A stretch of DNA of 64,000 bases from NCBI GenBank assembly GCA_016222805.1, contig JACRQG010000041.1, forward strand, positions 62,001 to 126,000, in the 5' to 3' direction. The position numbers and the translations under genes are program-made. The stretch comes from Verrucomicrobiota bacterium. GTDB taxonomy: Bacteria > Verrucomicrobiota > Verrucomicrobiia > Opitutales > Opitutaceae. Positions 1,475 through 8,981 of the stretch are shown here, piece by piece; positions within the stretch are counted from its first letter, which is position 1, and every line of letters starts with the position of its first letter. Below the pieces are notes generated by a model that was given only the letters and a program-made list of their open reading frames with translations, did not search any database and was not told where the DNA came from.

Positions 1475-2242
1475 CTAGCCCTTGGGGGCCGCTGTGCGTT
1501 CCGGCGTCTCTCCGCTGCCATCGCCCATGCGGCGGCGGATGAAATCCACCTCCGGCCCATCCGCGCGCACCTTCACGGTGGTCTGCCGCGAGGCCTCCTG
1601 GCCCATGAAGTCCACCGTCGCCGAGGCGATGATCGGCAGGTACTTTCTCAGGTCCTTGCTCTCGTCCTCGGTGCTCGCGTGGATGCTCCAGAGTTCCGTC
1701 GGCGGACGACCCTCGGTCGCCGGCTTGTTCTCCCGCGCCGAAATCTTGAGGTACTTTTCGTACACGGTCACCCGCCGCTGCACCTCATCGTACCCGATGA
1801 CTTCGGAGCGGGGAGGTTCGTATACCGCCACCGTGCGATAGCTCGTGTTGCCGCGCGCATCCGTCACCGGCACCGATTCGTAACGCACGCCGCCGCCGAC
1901 CTGGGCGTAAACCGGCACGCTCACGCGCTCGATCTTGGAGCGGGGAGCCTCCATCCCGTAGTCCAGCTCGATCACCATGTCGGCGCGCTCCGGAGTCGGC
2001 GACTCGTACAGGCCCTTGCCCGACAGCGCGGTGCGGACGAAATCCGTCGCCTCCCGGTGGCGCAGGCTCTCTTCGCCGTAGCGCGAATTCCGGGTCGTGA
2101 TCACATACGACTGCGCCTCCTTTTCGGTCGGTCGCGCAATCGCATCGACCTTCACCTTGTAGGCGGGCGTGGAGCATCCCACCCCCAGGCCGGCCAGCAA
2201 CAGGGCAGCGGGCAACGCGCGCGGGAGCGGAGAGGACTTCAT
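1475..2242 (-). CDS. Putative lipoprotein of unknown function
   Basis: 255 residues. It begins with a hydrophobic signal (LPAALLLAGLGVGC) with a lipobox-like Cys near residue 23, so it is probably a lipoprotein. The mature part is hydrophilic with Tyr-rich beta-type segments (VPVYAQVGGGVRYESVPV, YRTVAVYEPP) and a conserved-looking ELWSIHASTEDESKDLRKYLP stretch. This resembles periplasmic DUF4136-like lipoproteins, but I cannot assign a family with confidence. It lies 56 bp downstream of the glycine-zipper lipoprotein on the same strand, so the two are probably co-transcribed and may work together in the envelope. Confidence 0.7.
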   Translation of the reverse strand: MKSSPLPRALPAALLLAGLGVGCSTPAYKVKVDAIARPTEKEAQSYVITTRNSRYGEESLRHREATDFVRTALSGKGLYESPTPERADMVIELDYGMEAPRSKIERVSVPVYAQVGGGVRYESVPVTDARGNTSYRTVAVYEPPRSEVIGYDEVQRRVTVYEKYLKISARENKPATEGRPPTELWSIHASTEDESKDLRKYLPIIASATVDFMGQEASRQTTVKVRADGPEVDFIRRRMGDGSGETPERTAAPKG

Positions 2243-2298: not shown

Positions 2299-2922
2299 CT
2301 AGATTCCGGGTTTGGCGGCCGCCGGAGCCGGCGCCTCCGCCGCCTTGCGGGCCGGTGTCTCCTCACCCTTCAGCCGGGCGAGTTCCTCCTCGAGCCGGGC
2401 GATTTCCGCCTCGGTGGAAAGGGTCTTTTCGTGGGCCTCGTCGAGCTCCTTCTTCTTGGCCAGGGCCGCCGCCCGTTCATCGCGCAGCTTCTTCAGCCGA
2501 TCCGAAGCCATCTCCAGCTTCTTCTTGGCATCGGCAAGCTCGATGTCGGAGATCCGGAAGCCCTCGGCAATGGCGAGTTCCTCCTCCATTGCCGCCTTCA
2601 ACTTGGCCTCTTCGGCGCGTTTCTTCGCGAGTTCCTGCTGATACGCCCGTTCTTGCGCCAGCCGGTCCTGCTCCCGGCGATCCTTCGCATCCTGCACCAT
2701 GCCGACGATGCCGCCGATCAACGCGCCAGCCGCCGCACCACCCACGAGGCCGGTGCCAGTCCCCATGCTGCTGTTGCTGCCGACCACCGCGCCACCCGCG
2801 CCACCGATCAGGGCGCCGGTGCCGGCTCCGGTCGCCGTCTTCGACGGGGCCACTCCGGAGGAACACCCGGTCAGGCCCGCCAGGGCGACCACGGTACCGA
2901 TTCCGACAAATTGACGAATCAT
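2299..2922 (-). CDS. Glycine-zipper lipoprotein with coiled coil
   Basis: 207 residues from the ATG at 2922, which places the signal peptide and lipobox (LAGLTGC) immediately at the N-terminus; an earlier in-frame start would put 23 unrelated residues before it. After the lipidated Cys comes a Gly/Ala-rich glycine-zipper segment (GAGTGALIGGAGGAVVGS, then a second zipper AAGALIGGIVG). About 100 residues of charged heptad coiled coil (EELAIAEG... KKLEMASDRLKKLRDE) and an Ala/Pro tail follow. Glycine-zipper lipoproteins (YMGG/OmpA-like family) are anchored in the outer membrane. It is divergent from the channel operon starting at 3159 and shares a 236-bp intergenic region with it. Confidence 0.75.
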   Translation of the reverse strand: MIRQFVGIGTVVALAGLTGCSSGVAPSKTATGAGTGALIGGAGGAVVGSNSSMGTGTGLVGGAAAGALIGGIVGMVQDAKDRREQDRLAQERAYQQELAKKRAEEAKLKAAMEEELAIAEGFRISDIELADAKKKLEMASDRLKKLRDERAAALAKKKELDEAHEKTLSTEAEIARLEEELARLKGEETPARKAAEAPAPAAAKPGI

Positions 2923-3057
2923 GAAAGCGCGGGGTTGGGGAGAGTGGGAGTCCATGGCCGGACGCAAGGGAGAGCAAATAGTTTCAGGCACGCGACGAAA
3001 CCTTCCTCACCAGTAAAATTGTGTTCTTTTTTTGTTCAACCCCGGTATGCAGATTTC

Positions 3058-3084
3058 CGCCGCCACCCAAAAACTTCGGCGGCG
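3058..3084. promoter_or_regulatory. Inverted repeat in the divergent intergenic region
   Basis: A perfect 7-bp inverted repeat (CGCCGCC at 3058-3064 and GGCGGCG at 3078-3084) with a 13-base A-rich spacer lies between the lipoprotein pair and the channel/vWA operon. It is about 75 bp upstream of the channel start. It could be an operator or a 5'-leader hairpin. No clear sigma-70 promoter was recognised in the A/T-rich stretch beside it (about 3013-3040). Confidence 0.3.
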
Positions 3085-3158
3085 TGATTTGCGCTTTCGC
3101 CCATCCTGCGGCAACCATTCCGCGCTTCGCCTCCGCCCCCAGTCCTCCTTTCACCTCC

Positions 3159-4016
3159 ATGATCTCCCGCAAGAAGGGGATTCTGTCCTCCGAGTTTCTC
3201 GTTCCCGCCTTTGGCCTGCTCGTTTCCGTCCTGCTCGTCGAGCCCTACTACCGAATCGTGGTGGAACCGCGCGTCGAGCAGATCGAGCTGAAGCAGCGCG
3301 TGATGTCAGCCCAGGGCTCGACCGCCGGCGGCAACACGGAACTGCGGTCAATCTACGTCATCATCAAGGACACCGAGCAGAAGACGGAGATCATGTTCGC
3401 GATCTGGTCGTTCATCATTCTCGGCTATAAGCTGTATGCCCTGCGGCGGGAGCGGCGGGTGTTTGCCCATGACTTGCTGCGCCTCCAGCCGGGCGAACGC
3501 ATCATCCCCGAGGACTCCCTCGACCGGCACAAGGAACTGCGCGCCGCCATCGATCGGGAACCGCGCTGGCGGGATCTCCTGCTGCCGGAGTGCCTGCTCG
3601 CGGCCTTGCATCGCTTCCACGCGACCCACTCGATTCCGGATGCCGCCAATGCCGTCAAGGAACGGGCCGAACTGGCGGCCGACCAGCTCGACTCCTCCCT
3701 GTCCCTGGTCCGGTACATTGCCTGGGCGATCCCGGCCATCGGCTTCATCGGGACGGTGCGCGGCATCGGTCTGGCCCTCGCGTTCGCCGAGGACGCCCTC
3801 AAGGGCGACATCGCCCCCGTGATCGACGCGCTCGGCCTCGCGTTCAACTCCACCCTCGTCGCCCTGATCCTCTCGATGGGTCTGATGTACTTCATGCACG
3901 TCGTGCAATCCCAGCAGGAGGCGTTCATCATCGAAACCCAGACCTTCTGCCGCGACAAGCTGATCGACGTGATGAAGATCCCGGCCCGCGACGAGGCGGT
4001 CGGTTCGGTGAGCTGA
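3159..4016 (+). CDS. MotA/TolQ/ExbB-like proton channel protein
   Basis: 285 residues. Predicted membrane helices lie at about 13-28, 78-95, 187-209 and 226-247. The pair IGFIGTVRGIGLALAFA and LAFNSTLVALILS matches the conserved pore helices of the MotA/TolQ/ExbB family, which use proton flow to power partner proteins. The large cytoplasmic segment between helices 2 and 3 is family-typical. The ATG at 3159 was chosen because the longer upstream frame crosses the promoter region and encodes Pro-rich sequence. It heads a four-gene operon (15-bp gap to the next gene). Its likely partners are the two vWA proteins, whose single helix carries an Asp as in TolR, ExbD and MotB. Confidence 0.85.
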   Translation: MISRKKGILSSEFLVPAFGLLVSVLLVEPYYRIVVEPRVEQIELKQRVMSAQGSTAGGNTELRSIYVIIKDTEQKTEIMFAIWSFIILGYKLYALRRERRVFAHDLLRLQPGERIIPEDSLDRHKELRAAIDREPRWRDLLLPECLLAALHRFHATHSIPDAANAVKERAELAADQLDSSLSLVRYIAWAIPAIGFIGTVRGIGLALAFAEDALKGDIAPVIDALGLAFNSTLVALILSMGLMYFMHVVQSQQEAFIIETQTFCRDKLIDVMKIPARDEAVGSVS

Positions 4017-4030
4017 TCCTCCGCCGACCC

Positions 4031-5518
4031 ATGAGCACTTTCGGGCTGGAACTTTCCGACGTCTCGTTTCTGACCGCACGCTGCACCGGCGACGACTGCC
4101 ACCTGGTCGACGTGGCCGACCGCAACGGCTCCCCGGACTGGCCGGGGTACTGCCATGCCGACGGCGCCAATCTCTCGTTTGGACGGCTGGCCGAGGACCT
4201 CTGGTTTGTCCACCCGCGGCGCATCGTGCACAACTTCTGGGCGCGGCTTGGGCACGAGCCGTCAACCCTGGCGGTGTCCAGCAAGCCGCCATCGTCCTCG
4301 GAACTGGCGTTCTTCTTTCTGCGCGAATTCGTCGGCCGCCTTCACCATGCCGCCGGCAGCCCCGAAAAGGTGGTCCTCGCCATTCCGGGCGCCTACCTCA
4401 AGGATCCTGCGACGGAGGAGGAGAAGGTCGGCCTGCTGCTGGGCATGGCGGCGGAACTCAAGCTCCCGCTGGCCGGGCTCGTGGATCTGGCGTGTGCCGC
4501 CCTCTGCGACCCGCGCTCGCCCGGCTTCAATCCAAACCTCCCGGTGCTGGTGGTCGATTCCGGTCTCGAAGGCACCGATCTGACGCTCTTCTCCACGCGC
4601 GGTCGAGTCGCACGCCGGGATTTCCTCCACCTGCCGCAACATGGCGTCGCGCCCCTGCTGAAGCAGCTCACGAGTTCGTTCGGCAACCGCTTCCTGCGCC
4701 ACACGGCCTTCGACATCCTGGAGGACGGGCGCATCGAGCAGACCTTCTTCCGCCAGACCAAAGACTTTCTTTTCGGGGAGGCCGGGGAGTTCCGGTTTGT
4801 CATCAACACCGCCACCCGCACCTACGAGATGGTCGCCAAGCGCGAACAGCTCGCGGCCGACGCCGCTCCGTTTGTCGGCGCCATCGTCCAGAACCTCCAG
4901 TCATTCCAGCATGCGTCGCCGCACGCCGCGGATCCCTGCACCATCGCGCTGACGCACCGCGCCGCCTGCCTCCCTGGGCTGGAAGCCCGCCTCCGGGCCG
5001 CCGGCTGCACCCGCTTGCTCCGGCTTCCGCGCGGCGCACCGGCGGTCGGAGCCGCGCGGATCGGACACCTCCGCCTCCCGGTGTTGCGCGACCTTGCGGA
5101 TGCCGCCGTGGAAACCGCCGTCGAACTCGCAGAGGCCCGAACGCTGATCGCCGCCCCGTGGGAGGCCCGCCTGCAGAAGCACCGCGGCGGCACGACCCAC
5201 CAGCGCCCGACCCACGCCATCCTCGACGGCGTCGGTCAGCCGATCGACCGGAATGCACGGTTCGTGATCGGGCTGGCCGAAACCGCCCCGGACCTGGCGT
5301 TGCCCGCGGCCTTCGGCGCGGCCGATAACTGCACCATCACCCTCTCCCGGGACGATGGGCGCTGGTGGTTCGTCGACGACGCCGCCGCCCGCGAGGGCGC
5401 CACCCATCCGGGGCTCTCCCTCCGCAGCCCGGTGGAGGCCGGCGACCGGCTGGTGATTCGCTCCGGCGAACATACGGCGGAGATTCTCTTCGCCCACTGC
5501 CCTGCCCGGCGCGACTAA
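4031..5518 (+). CDS. Hsp70/actin-fold ATPase-like protein with FHA-like C-terminus
   Basis: 495 residues, no signal peptide or membrane helix, so cytoplasmic. KVVLAIPGAYLKDP (about 113-126) corresponds to the Hsp70 segment AVITVPAYFND, and the following ELKLPLAGLVDLACAAL matches the Hsp70 helix around INEPTAAAL. PVLVVDSGLEGTDLTLFS (about 171-188) is a phosphate-2-like motif with D176. A canonical N-terminal DLGTTNS motif is absent; the start reads FGLELSDVSFL. Residues about 405-490 form a compact beta-rich FHA-like region (CTITLSRDDGRWWFVDD, GDRLVIRSGEHTAEILF). It sits between the channel gene and the vWA genes and is presumably a nucleotide-dependent switch or scaffold for them. The function is inferred from fold only. 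Confidence 0.7.
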   Translation: MSTFGLELSDVSFLTARCTGDDCHLVDVADRNGSPDWPGYCHADGANLSFGRLAEDLWFVHPRRIVHNFWARLGHEPSTLAVSSKPPSSSELAFFFLREFVGRLHHAAGSPEKVVLAIPGAYLKDPATEEEKVGLLLGMAAELKLPLAGLVDLACAALCDPRSPGFNPNLPVLVVDSGLEGTDLTLFSTRGRVARRDFLHLPQHGVAPLLKQLTSSFGNRFLRHTAFDILEDGRIEQTFFRQTKDFLFGEAGEFRFVINTATRTYEMVAKREQLAADAAPFVGAIVQNLQSFQHASPHAADPCTIALTHRAACLPGLEARLRAAGCTRLLRLPRGAPAVGAARIGHLRLPVLRDLADAAVETAVELAEARTLIAAPWEARLQKHRGGTTHQRPTHAILDGVGQPIDRNARFVIGLAETAPDLALPAAFGAADNCTITLSRDDGRWWFVDDAAAREGATHPGLSLRSPVEAGDRLVIRSGEHTAEILFAHCPARRD

Positions 5519-5541
5519 GAGCCCGCCCGCACCGCCTCGCC

Positions 5542-6618
5542 ATGTCCCAGCTGGCCAAGAAGCGTCGCGAAACCGAGATCTACAGCCTCTCGTTCCTCGA
5601 CTGCATCTGCTGCGGTTTCGGGGCCGTCCTGCTCATCTTCATCCTCACCATCGCCCGCAAGACGGAGGTCGACAAGTCCGACGTCGATGCGGCGCGGGAC
5701 AAGCTCCGCAAGGTCGAGACCCAGCTCACCCTCAACAAGGAGGAACTCGACCGCCTCGCCGCCCTCCTCGCCGCCGCCCAGTTGGAACTCCAGGCGATCA
5801 ACTCGCGGACCGCCGAGGAGCAGGTCAAACTCAGCAACCGCCGGCGCGAACTCCTGCTCATGCTCCAGCAGATTGGCGCGCTCAAGGACGCCCTTCATGC
5901 CCTGCTCGGGGAGAAGAACGCGCTCCCCACCGAGGAAGCGCCGCCGCCGGTGCCCATCCCCAACATCGATCGGCGCCAGTATCTCACCGGGGTGAAGCTG
6001 CACGGCGAATTTGTCGTCTTCCTCCTCCGCACCTCGGGCTCGATGCTTGATGACACCATCGACGGCGCCGCCCAGCGGCTGCTCGATCCCGACGACAAGA
6101 AGCGGGAGGCGCCCAAGTGGCAGCGCGTGATCCAATCCTTGATCTGGATGCTCGCCAATCTCGGGCCCGACACGCGCTTCCAGATTCTGCTCTTCAACGA
6201 CGAAACCACGTCAATCCTCCCCACCCGCGGCGAGGAATGGTTCAGCACGAAGGACCAGAAGACGATGAGTGAAATCGTCGCACGCCTCCACGCCATCGTC
6301 CCCAAGGGTCCGGCCAACCTCGAACGAGCCTTCACCGCTGTTCGGTTCCTGCCCCGCCTGCCCGACAGCATCGTGCTGCTGACCGACGGCCTGCCCACCC
6401 AGAGCGACTCAATCCCGATGGAAGGCGACATCGACGAGGGCAGCCGCGTGCGCTTCTTCGAGATTGCCCGCAAACAACTGCCGCCGCGGATCCCGGTGAG
6501 CACCATCCTCTACCCGATGCTGACCGGCGACCCCGGTGCCCCCGGCCTCTACTGGGAACTCGCCAACGGCACCCGCGGAGCGCTCGTCAGCCCTTCGAAA
6601 TCCTGGCCCGACACATGA
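5542..6618 (+). CDS. TolR-like membrane-anchored von Willebrand A protein 1 (degenerate MIDAS)
   Basis: 358 residues. A short basic N-terminus leads to one membrane helix, SLSFLDCICCGFGA... (about 15-37), with an in-membrane Asp (D20) placed like the essential Asp of TolR/ExbD/MotB. A coiled coil (about 45-130) is followed by a vWA domain (about 150-345). The metal site is degenerate: the usual DxSxS reads LLRTSGSM, so the first Asp is Arg, and the usual Thr region reads GPANLERAF. The last motif LLTDGLP is kept. The ATG at 5542 gives the helix at the N-terminus as in the paralogue next door. It overlaps that gene by ATGA (6615-6618), indicating translational coupling. Confidence 0.8.
   Translation: MSQLAKKRRETEIYSLSFLDCICCGFGAVLLIFILTIARKTEVDKSDVDAARDKLRKVETQLTLNKEELDRLAALLAAAQLELQAINSRTAEEQVKLSNRRRELLLMLQQIGALKDALHALLGEKNALPTEEAPPPVPIPNIDRRQYLTGVKLHGEFVVFLLRTSGSMLDDTIDGAAQRLLDPDDKKREAPKWQRVIQSLIWMLANLGPDTRFQILLFNDETTSILPTRGEEWFSTKDQKTMSEIVARLHAIVPKGPANLERAFTAVRFLPRLPDSIVLLTDGLPTQSDSIPMEGDIDEGSRVRFFEIARKQLPPRIPVSTILYPMLTGDPGAPGLYWELANGTRGALVSPSKSWPDT
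5593..5624 (+). repeat. 32-bp direct repeat, copy 1 (vWA helix codons)
   Basis: This stretch is identical to 6654-6685. Both copies encode the central FLDCICCGFG helix of the two adjacent vWA genes. Identity over 32 bases between otherwise diverged paralogues points to strong constraint or recent gene conversion. Confidence 0.7.
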
Positions 6619-7637
6619 TTCGCCGCCGCCAGACCCAGGTCTTCAGCCTGTCCTTCCTCGACTGCATCTGCTGCGGTTTCGGGGCGATCATCCTGATCTT
6701 CGTCCTCAACATCGGGTCGCGCCACAAGGAAAAGCTCGAGTCCCTGCTCGAGGTCCAGCGGGCACTGGCCGAGAAGGCCGCCGCCCTCGCCAACATCCAG
6801 GCGGCCCGGGTCGAGGTACAGCGGAACAATCAGCGCATCACCCGGCAGGTGACGGAGGCGCGGCTGCGCAACGACGAGATCCAGGCGCTCGTCGCCGAGT
6901 TGGAGCGGAGCCTTCAGCACGAGAAACGCGGCCAGCAGGCGCTTCTCGTCGACCTTGACGAGCTCAAGAAGGAGATCGCGGCGCGCCAGAAGAAGCCCGA
7001 GCACGACATCGTGCTGCCCGACGTCAAACCCACGCCCCTCGGCCTGCCGATCGGCAACAACTACATCGCCATCATCGTCGACACCTCCGGCTCGATGCGC
7101 GACCCCAACCACGGCGGGCTCTGGCCCATCGTCATCCGCACGATCGACAGCGTCCTCGACTCCTATCCGACCATCGACGGCATCCAGCTCATCGATGGCG
7201 ATGGCCGCTTCATCCTCGGACGCCGCAACGCCTCCCGCACGGCCGCCTGGCTGCCCGACACGCCGCAGACCCGCGACGCGATCAAGCGCACGCTGCGCCG
7301 CTACGATCAGGATACCGTCTCCAACCCCGTGCCCGGGGTCTACAATGCGATGCGCTTCCTCTTCGACCCGGACAATCCCAAGATGCGAATGGGGATCTTC
7401 GTCTTCGGCGACGAGTTCAACTCGCCCGACAGCGCCGACTCCGTCATCCGCCGGCTCGACGAGCTCAATCCCGCAGACGACAACGGCGCCCGCAAAGTGA
7501 CGATCAACGCCGTCGGGTTCCCCACCACCATCCGGTACCAGTTTTCCATGGGCAACACCGGCCTGCGCTTCGCCAACCTGATGCGCACGGTGACCTACCT
7601 CCACGGCGGCGCGTTCATCGCGCTGCAGGATCTATAG
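6615..7637 (+). CDS. TolR-like membrane-anchored von Willebrand A protein 2 (intact MIDAS)
   Basis: 340 residues, same architecture as the preceding gene: basic start, membrane helix SLSFLDCICCGFGA... (about 11-33) with D16 in the helix, coiled coil (about 36-125), then a vWA domain from about 150. Here the metal-ion-dependent adhesion site is intact (IIVDTSGSM). The helix segment is almost identical to that of the paralogue at both protein and DNA level, so the two arose by duplication. It is the last gene of the operon. It overlaps the previous gene by 4 bp and converges on the GltS-like gene with only 21 bp between the stop codons. Confidence 0.8.
   Translation: MIRRRQTQVFSLSFLDCICCGFGAIILIFVLNIGSRHKEKLESLLEVQRALAEKAAALANIQAARVEVQRNNQRITRQVTEARLRNDEIQALVAELERSLQHEKRGQQALLVDLDELKKEIAARQKKPEHDIVLPDVKPTPLGLPIGNNYIAIIVDTSGSMRDPNHGGLWPIVIRTIDSVLDSYPTIDGIQLIDGDGRFILGRRNASRTAAWLPDTPQTRDAIKRTLRRYDQDTVSNPVPGVYNAMRFLFDPDNPKMRMGIFVFGDEFNSPDSADSVIRRLDELNPADDNGARKVTINAVGFPTTIRYQFSMGNTGLRFANLMRTVTYLHGGAFIALQDL
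6654..6685 (+). repeat. 32-bp direct repeat, copy 2 (vWA helix codons)
   Basis: Second copy of the repeat at 5593-5624, in the same reading frame relative to the encoded membrane helix. Confidence 0.7.
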
Positions 7638-7661
7638 CCGGCCATTCCCCGGCCGCGGCTA
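7635..7661. terminator. Hairpin spanning both convergent stop codons
   Basis: TAGCCG (7635-7640) pairs with CGGCTA (7656-7661), with further G/C pairing inside. The left arm contains the stop codon of vWA protein 2 and the right arm that of the GltS-like gene. There is no T-run, so if it terminates transcription it does so weakly or acts as an RNA end stabiliser for both transcripts. Confidence 0.35.
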
Positions 7662-8981
7662 GCGGAAGAGGTTCAGCGCCGTCGTCGTCACCAGCGCGTT
7701 GGCGAAATCCACCAGGAAGGCTCCGACGATCGGCACGATCAGGAACGCCCGCGGAGCGGCGCCGAACCGGCCGGCCAGCACCCGCATGGTCGCAAGGGCA
7801 TTCGACGTCGCCCCCAAGCCGAACCCGATCATCCCCGCGCTCATCACGGCGGCTTCGTAGTCCGCCCCCATGACCCGGAACACAACCCAGTAGGCCAGCG
7901 CCCCGAGCAGGAGGACCTGGATCGCCAGGATGACCAGCATCGGCACGGCCGCATGGGCCAGTTGGTTGAGCTGGAGGTCGATCATCACGACGGCAAGCAG
8001 CCACGCCAGCGCGACCGAACCAATCGCGTCGGTCTGGCCGGTGCGCAGCCAGCCGCCGCGGAAGGCATCGTGGGTGTTGCGGACCACCGCCGCGACCATC
8101 ATCGACCCCATGTAGACCGGAAAGGTGATGCCGGCCCGCTGCAGGTACAAACTGACAAAGGCCCCCAGCTTCATGCTGACCACCAGCACCGCCAGGTGCA
8201 CGAGGGTGCCGCGCCCCGACTTCACGAGCGCCGCCACCTCCGCGAGAAATCCTTCCCCCTCGTCGGGGGCGCCGGCCCCCTCCGTCGCCTCGCCTTCTTT
8301 CCGCTCCTTCCGCCCGAGTCGCCGCTCCACCAGCCGCCCGCCCACGATTCCCGCCACCATCCCGCCGGCGATCACCCCAAACGCCGCCGCCGCCACTCCC
8401 ACCGTCGCCGCACCTGTCAACCCGGCCTTGTCGAAGTCCGGGGCGAAGCCGGCCGCGGTGCCGAAGCCGCCCATCAGGGCCACGTTGCCGGCCATCAGGC
8501 CCATGAGGGGATTTTCACCGAGGGCGCGCGCGATGACCGCGCCGCTCACCGCCTGCATCACCGCGATCCCGGCGGCCAGCAGGAGATAGAGGACGAGCGG
8601 GCGGCCGCCCTGCCGCGCGACGCTCCAACTCGCGTTCAAACCGATGCAGGTGAAGAACAGGATCAGCAGCGGCCGCTCCACATCCGTCGGCCGCGGCACA
8701 CTCAGATCCCACTGGGGCAGCACCGGCCAGAGCCACCACGCCGCCGCGGAGTTGCCCTGCACCGCCACCCAGCCGGGACGCAGCTCCGACGCCGCCAGCA
8801 GGCCCACCGCAATCAGCAGTCCACCCACAATCGCCGGCGGCACATTGGAACGCCGCAACCAGCCGACCCGGCGGGTCAACACCTCGCCCAACAGGAGGAC
8901 CGGCACCGCCAGCGCGAGCAGCGTGAAGGGACCGACGGTCAGCGCCGGCACGGCGAGTTGGGCCGGGACGCCCGTGTTCAT
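7659..8981 (-). CDS. gltS: GltS-like sodium:glutamate symporter
   Basis: 440 residues, about ten to twelve hydrophobic helices. Family-typical Gly-rich segments include NPLMGLMAGNVALMGGFGTAAGF near the middle and SAGMIGFGLGATSNALATM near the C-terminus, which match the two pore loops of the GltS sodium/glutamate symporter family. A charged cytoplasmic loop (RKERKEGEATEG...) separates the two halves. The ATG at 8981 overlaps the stop of the upstream MFS gene as ATGA (8978-8981), so the two are translationally coupled. The substrate (glutamate or another anion) cannot be settled from sequence. The symbol is by family. Confidence 0.8.
   Translation of the reverse strand: MNTGVPAQLAVPALTVGPFTLLALAVPVLLLGEVLTRRVGWLRRSNVPPAIVGGLLIAVGLLAASELRPGWVAVQGNSAAAWWLWPVLPQWDLSVPRPTDVERPLLILFFTCIGLNASWSVARQGGRPLVLYLLLAAGIAVMQAVSGAVIARALGENPLMGLMAGNVALMGGFGTAAGFAPDFDKAGLTGAATVGVAAAAFGVIAGGMVAGIVGGRLVERRLGRKERKEGEATEGAGAPDEGEGFLAEVAALVKSGRGTLVHLAVLVVSMKLGAFVSLYLQRAGITFPVYMGSMMVAAVVRNTHDAFRGGWLRTGQTDAIGSVALAWLLAVVMIDLQLNQLAHAAVPMLVILAIQVLLLGALAYWVVFRVMGADYEAAVMSAGMIGFGLGATSNALATMRVLAGRFGAAPRAFLIVPIVGAFLVDFANALVTTTALNLFR

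Follow-up and report, generated by a model that had tools for sequence, protein, structure and literature searches.

In this study, we analysed a run of four genes in a 64,000-nucleotide stretch (hereafter, the window) of contig JACRQG010000041.1 from a Verrucomicrobiota bacterium of the Opitutaceae, whose source genome (G000) has a size of 7.9 Mb. Comparing sequences and predicted structures, we think it somewhat probable that the products form a 5:2 membrane motor of the TolQ/ExbB/MotA class, driven by the proton-motive force, in which a heterodimer of two vWA proteins would serve as the axle and an Hsp70-like protein as a regulatory cap. The genes encode, in order, a TolQ/ExbB-type channel (P0001), a protein resembling the nucleotide-binding domain (NBD) of Hsp70 (P0002) and two vWA proteins (vWA1, P0003; vWA2, P0004), all on the forward strand (Table 1). 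A first-pass annotation made from the DNA alone had given the coordinates and reading frames of the four genes correctly, and was also right in two of the three junctions, the 23-bp gap and the 4-bp overlap; the first gap is 14 bp, not 15 bp. In named records, vWA2 has its nearest relatives in Opitutaceae (84% identity for L018).

The proton-channel family proposed earlier for P0001 was supported by a match to Pfam MotA_ExbB (4.4e-10) and by structural comparison. A profile from 34 P0001 relatives found TolQ in the Protein Data Bank (8.7e-4), and the AlphaFold2 (AF2) model (predicted local distance difference test, pLDDT, 88.1) aligned best with TolQ (8odt; Z 14.1, 207 residues, root-mean-square deviation (rmsd) 4.2, model residues 60–280), with Z 12.9 for ExbB, 10.3 for ZorA and at most 9.2 for MotA. 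Four membrane helices are predicted (11–51, 72–103, 159–208 and 219–267), and the first is regarded as additional relative to TolQ because the TolQ match starts at residue 60. Two pore-side threonines, Thr199 and Thr232, are invariant, and a Thr ring has a role in TolQ/ExbB/MotA channels according to PMC12204202.

The vWA1 and vWA2 families are homologous over their full length (hhalign E 8.1e-42), and we infer that they are products of a duplication. Taken singly, P0003 and P0004 are both under the Pfam cut-off; VWA_3 matches 21 of 33 vWA1 relatives (best 5.5e-10). The N-terminal helices (window 5587–5655 in vWA1 and 6648–6716 in vWA2) are identical at 18 of 23 residues, in agreement with the earlier description of two vWA proteins with near-identical Asp-bearing helices. 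Each helix has a basic start, then the Asp (Asp20 of vWA1, Asp16 of vWA2), followed by Cys at D+4, Gly at D+5 and Gly at D+7. Among the 85 loci collected, the Asp was present in all 84 copies of vWA1 and all 85 of vWA2. Because 80 of these loci had been retrieved by a pattern that includes the Asp, its conservation was rechecked in 23 genomes retrieved by profile, where it was found in 22/22 vWA1 (the loci in which vWA1 is present) and 23/23 vWA2, which ruled out a mere artefact of the search pattern. The Cys and both Gly residues are likewise invariant in the 84 vWA1 and 85 vWA2 proteins, partly as a consequence of the search pattern in the case of vWA2, and the profile-found set agrees. The invariant Cys lies inside the membrane helix of both proteins.

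At the metal-ion-dependent adhesion site (MIDAS) the two proteins differ. vWA2 carries DTSGSM starting at Asp156 (window 7080–7097), which conforms to DxSxS, and the MIDAS Asp is present in vWA2 of 85/85 loci. The corresponding position in vWA1 of the window is Arg163; across loci it is Asp in 12 of 84, Arg in 46 and Glu in 26, and in the profile-found set Asp in 6/22 and Arg or Glu in 16/22. Since the 12 loci that keep the Asp are exactly those outside Opitutae, and the other 72, all of Opitutae, lack it, the loss of the vWA1 metal site can be regarded as a derived state of Opitutae. The linker lengths of vWA1 and vWA2 correlate (rho 0.65).

P0002 alone had no match above cut-off in Pfam, NCBIfam or PADLOC. 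Its family profile found DnaK (2v7y; 5.7e-7, profile positions 3–365), and the AF2 model (pLDDT 90.9, predicted template modelling score 0.81) matched the NBDs of Hsp70 proteins, best that of mortalin (Z 33.4, 336 residues, rmsd 2.6), with Z 32.9 to DnaK 2v7y and 33.0 to Ssz1 4gni; sequence profile and model concur that residues 1–350 have the Hsp70 NBD fold. The DnaK motifs are altered in the P0002 family: phosphate-1 GIDLGTT corresponds to GIELxDA, phosphate-2 DLGGGT to D-L-H-L-H/E and adenosine GGSTR to xSxRA, and GTT and GGGT were found in 0/42 aligned relatives, the motifs being defined in part from the DnaK alignment. Judged by these residues, P0002 looks catalytically dead (a pseudo-ATPase). 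Decay of the gene was ruled out by purifying selection, with a ratio of nonsynonymous to synonymous substitution (dN/dS) of 0.26–0.38 in five comparisons; purifying selection was found on three genes of the set, this one included. The earlier reading of P0002 as an Hsp70/actin-fold protein with an FHA-like tail thus stands, the tail being recognised by FHA Pfam PF00498 in 3/42 relatives (best 4.8e-13). It is canonical in Gammaproteobacteria and degenerate in Opitutae: the SRxH and GTxxNG residues are present in gammaproteobacterial relatives and absent in the window protein. No FHA tail was visible by eye at the C-termini of the Kiritimatiellia-type proteins of L092 and L130 or of the proteins of the f57 genomes.

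The annotation had left the co-occurrence of the four genes to be checked, and they were found to travel together. The complete order of channel, Hsp70-like protein, vWA1 and vWA2 occurs in 68 of the 85 loci, which contain near-duplicates; these 68 include Gammaproteobacteria and an acidobacterium, and the order is therefore not a product of chance. Six loci (L015, L016, L083, L087, L088 and L093) have channel, vWA1 and vWA2 without the Hsp70-like gene, ten are interrupted by contig ends, and in one (L082), a partly masked stretch, the channel was not found; L017 (G093), an unrelated weak match, was left out. In the three-gene variant both vWA linkers are shortened, to 132 and 134 residues. 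Among 387 Verrucomicrobiota genomes, 23 had vWA2 at E < 1e-100. The genomes with vWA1 were these same 23, and 19 of them had the Hsp70-like gene, of which no clear member was seen outside genomes with the vWA pair. These counts follow the removal of 22 of 45 genomes from the vWA search (E 4.4e-7 to 9.1e-4, mostly coiled-coil or partial matches by query range) and of 16 of 35 from the Hsp70-like search (13 matching the FHA side only and three a short NBD stretch), and the 19 include five weak matches (E 6e-9 to 1e-5) accepted by adjacency to the channel or vWA1. A hypergeometric value calculated after this selection takes no account of relatedness and is given no weight. Two genomes retain all four genes in split runs: in G375 the channel and Hsp70-like genes lie on one contig and the vWA pair on another (L132, L134), and in G249 vWA2 lies on a different contig from the rest (L133, L135). 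Misbinning instead of a true split may account for both.

Considering the above results, we propose the following model. Five P0001 subunits would form the channel ring, and one P0003 and one P0004 helix would lie in its lumen as the axle, the Asp of each helix taking up a proton, as the invariant Asp and Thr residues suggest. The coiled coils would place the two vWA heads in the periplasm, where they may turn or pull on an outer-membrane or wall ligand. The two heads probably have different jobs, because vWA2 keeps its metal site and vWA1 has lost it in Opitutae. P0002 would dock from the cytoplasmic side and act as a regulatory cap or clutch, its FHA domain having originally received the input of a Ser/Thr kinase, as the correlation of the two across loci would suggest; in the lineage of the window, the cap would have been retained and uncoupled from the kinase. 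That the vWA proteins take the place of TolR/MotB, as the annotation had it, agrees with their tandem position beside a TolQ-type channel, the invariant Asp and the channel Thr residues (74/74). More tentatively, these genes may represent a class of phospho-controlled rotary motor with a dead-Hsp70 clutch once thrown by kinase and FHA and an obligate vWA heterodimer axle, in which only one head would grip the ligand per turn, the metal site of the other having been retired.

The kinase component of this model comes from loci outside Opitutae. All four canonical-FHA loci with at least 4.5 kb of upstream sequence have an intact Ser/Thr kinase preceding the system, and a kinase-like motif occurs in 1 of 47 degenerate-FHA loci (L066, which phmmer did not find as a kinase). 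The kinase-like proteins of L092 and L130 have neither HRD nor DFG, and in both loci the Hsp70-like protein has no FHA domain. Since an intact kinase accompanies a canonical FHA and a dead or missing kinase accompanies a degenerate or lost FHA, this pattern suggests that the FHA domain of the Hsp70-like protein would read the neighbouring kinase. All eight non-Opitutae loci with the channel and 1.4 kb or more of upstream sequence have a PEGA-FGE gene immediately upstream in the same orientation (called by Pfam for several loci and by phmmer for the remainder). In Gammaproteobacteria, a Ser/Thr kinase with TPR and a PEGA-FGE protein were observed upstream of the channel in L091 (1591–6392), L085 (1149–6235), L096 and L097.

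Several results weigh against the proposed motor. The TolQ match (Z 14) concerns a helical protein, and a designed pore reached Z 10.4 with the P0001 model, higher than ZorA and MotA, so these lower structural ranks are weak evidence. Pfam support for vWA2 is weak (VWA_2 in 9/30 relatives only, best 4.7e-4), and the vWA1 profile retrieved no clear vWA chain among solved structures, mainly coiled coils. In Gammaproteobacteria the vWA linkers are unequal (156 versus 141–144 residues); because of this difference, an arrangement with the vWA heads lying side by side is unsupported. The Hsp70-like gene is dispensable, being missing in 6/85 loci and in 4/23 genomes with the vWA pair, all of one family (f2). 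The idea of this protein as a switch, also taken from the annotation, therefore stands in part: it is a constant partner with an NBD fold, but it lacks the ATP motifs and is missing from these loci and genomes. The counts behind the kinase-FHA link are small, and phylogeny confounds them.

Other functions were weighed against the motor. vWA domains usually bind ligands, and the gammaproteobacterial kinase, FHA and PEGA-FGE neighbours resemble a signalling set; both fit a function as gated ion channel or sensor. In that case, ligand or tension sensed by the vWA heads would shift the helices so that protons enter, and the Hsp70-like/FHA protein would report to the cytoplasm; the proton flow itself would be the signal, with no work done. 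We consider this rather unlikely, as the Asp and Thr retained in every copy examined are the power-stroke residues of this motor class. Far less credible still is an anti-phage system of the Zorya type. P0001 matches the PADLOC ZorA model (1.3e-5), ZorA is among the lower-ranked structural matches (Z 10.3) and the distribution is patchy (23/387 genomes); however, no nuclease and no ZorB, ZorC, ZorD or ZorE match was found among the four proteins, the periplasmic part is a vWA domain, and the neighbouring genes are conserved between loci. Moreover, P0004 had no relatives in phage records or viral contigs, and the only plasmid match was a partial one of P0001 (42% of the query, Rhizobium plasmid).

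It is possible, though doubtful, that the genes encode an envelope-maintenance or surface machine (Tol-Pal-like tethering, gliding or secretion) whose vWA heads pull on a glycine-zipper lipoprotein. Of the 62 Opitutae-type loci with the channel and 1 kb or more of upstream sequence, 59 encode such a lipoprotein divergently within 1 kb, and a 60th overlaps; downstream of the system in Gammaproteobacteria lie an OmpA and a glycine-zipper gene (by Pfam in L089 and L091, by phmmer in others). The Opitutae and gammaproteobacterial glycine-zipper genes need not be homologous, however, and the glycine-zipper protein and an adjoining DUF4136-like lipoprotein occur as a pair without the system in G132, G440 and G443 and at a distance from it in G113 and G250. 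Because they occur without the system, the two lipoproteins were ruled out as obligate parts. The glycine-zipper lipoprotein is probably a non-obligate associate, and the DUF4136-like one, whose copy in the window has no Pfam match, is weakly linked to the system.

Returning to the motor, its core has a published counterpart. TolQ homologues with heterologous pairs of vWA proteins bearing an Asp in a transpore helix (TPH), without TolR/ExbD, were proposed in Proteobacteria and Verrucomicrobia, together with AlphaFold3 5:2 models of the TolQ/TPH-vWA core (PMC12204202, Mol Biol Evol 2025). According to its description there, this TPH-vWA family shares with the window the adjacent TolQ-like channel, the heterologous Asp-helix vWA pair, the Thr ring and the lack of a TolR/ExbD match (here among the four proteins in Pfam and NCBIfam). 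The claim of the first-pass annotation that no such system had been described is thus contradicted for the core, which was proposed in that paper, and stands only with respect to the Hsp70-like/FHA part and its setting. In contrast to the core, Hsp70-like, FHA, kinase, PEGA and MIDAS are unmentioned in the running text of PMC12204202 (term counts of 0, the sole 'FHA' match being FhaC). Our literature searches found no description of an Hsp70-like/FHA partner of such a motor, of kinase and PEGA-FGE genes beside the Hsp70-like gene in Gammaproteobacteria, or of a lost vWA1 MIDAS Asp. As far as these searches reach, only the Hsp70-like/FHA part and its kinase/PEGA-FGE setting appear new.

With TolQR and ExbBD the system shares the channel fold (Z 14.1 and 12.9), a short cytoplasmic part and an Asp-helix partner; unlike them, it has an extra N-terminal channel helix (residues 1–60), a periplasmic vWA in place of the TolR/ExbD domain and a cytoplasmic Hsp70-like partner. 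A 5:2 assembly would be shared with ZorAB of Zorya, as would cytoplasmic regulation (as far as the text of PMC11890865 describes it), whereas the long ZorA tail, the peptidoglycan-binding ZorB and the nuclease are lacking here. P0002 has the NBD fold of Hsp70/DnaK and the pseudo-active Ssz1 (Z 32.9 and 33.0) but lacks GTT/GGGT (42/42) and a substrate-binding domain, with the FHA-like tail in place of the latter. TagR has the FGE fold, and a kinase, an FHA protein and an FGE-fold protein also occur together in the type VI secretion threonine phosphorylation pathway. There, kinase PpkA and an Fha protein switch an envelope machine, with TagR acting upstream (in the parts of PMC3953482 and PMC4348357 covered). 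The likeness is an analogy confined to Gammaproteobacteria, and unlike in that pathway, the FHA domain forms one protein with an Hsp70-like fold, and the machine would be a motor. The MoxR-vWA and GTPase-Hsp70 conflict systems were rejected as counterparts, being a different set in whose description, in the text covered, MotA and proton-channel terms are lacking (PMC7159879).

Regulation in the TolQ/ExbB/MotA class of motors usually works via plugs, periplasmic partners or effectors. If true, a constant Hsp70-like partner at the inner face would represent a new control mode for such motors, and the Hsp70 fold would have gained a new use. The series of kinase, FHA and pseudokinase states would form a natural experiment on the loss of a phospho-switch while the machine persists. 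Cultured carriers exist (Pelagicoccus isolates, L074–L076), so the system is open to testing.

Table 1. Genes, residues and neighbouring features of the four-gene system, in window coordinates.
Feature	Position	Strand	Remarks
TolQ/ExbB-type channel P0001	3159-4016	+	285 aa; Pfam MotA_ExbB, AF2 model, TolQ match
Thr199 codon, pore-side Thr of channel	3753-3755	+	invariant 74/74
Thr232 codon, second pore-side Thr of channel	3852-3854	+	invariant 74/74
Hsp70-NBD-like P0002	4031-5518	+	495 aa; profile and AF2 fold match
FHA-like C-terminal tail of P0002 (~residues 390-495)	5198-5515	+	alignment; degenerate here
vWA1 P0003	5542-6618	+	358 aa; N-terminal membrane helix, coiled coil, vWA domain
Asp20 codon of vWA1	5599-5601	+	84/84 loci; 22/22 in profile-found set
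vWA2 P0004	6615-7637	+	340 aa; layout as vWA1, MIDAS intact
Asp16 codon of vWA2	6660-6662	+	85/85 loci (pattern-biased); 23/23 in profile-found set
Divergent glycine-zipper lipoprotein	2299-2922	-	Gly-zipper_YMGG 3.7e-4, below cut-off
DUF4136-like lipoprotein adjoining the glycine-zipper one	1475-2242	-	homologues adjoin the system in 51 loci

A promoter scan of window positions 2850–7800 gave no sigma-70-like site, and the number of terminators in the same interval was not above that of shuffled sequence. Near the start of the window, an MMPL-like open reading frame (85–978; PF03176 3.9e-3, below cut-off) has apparently lost its frame near the end, and a response-regulator-like open reading frame (788–1351) lies directly after it.

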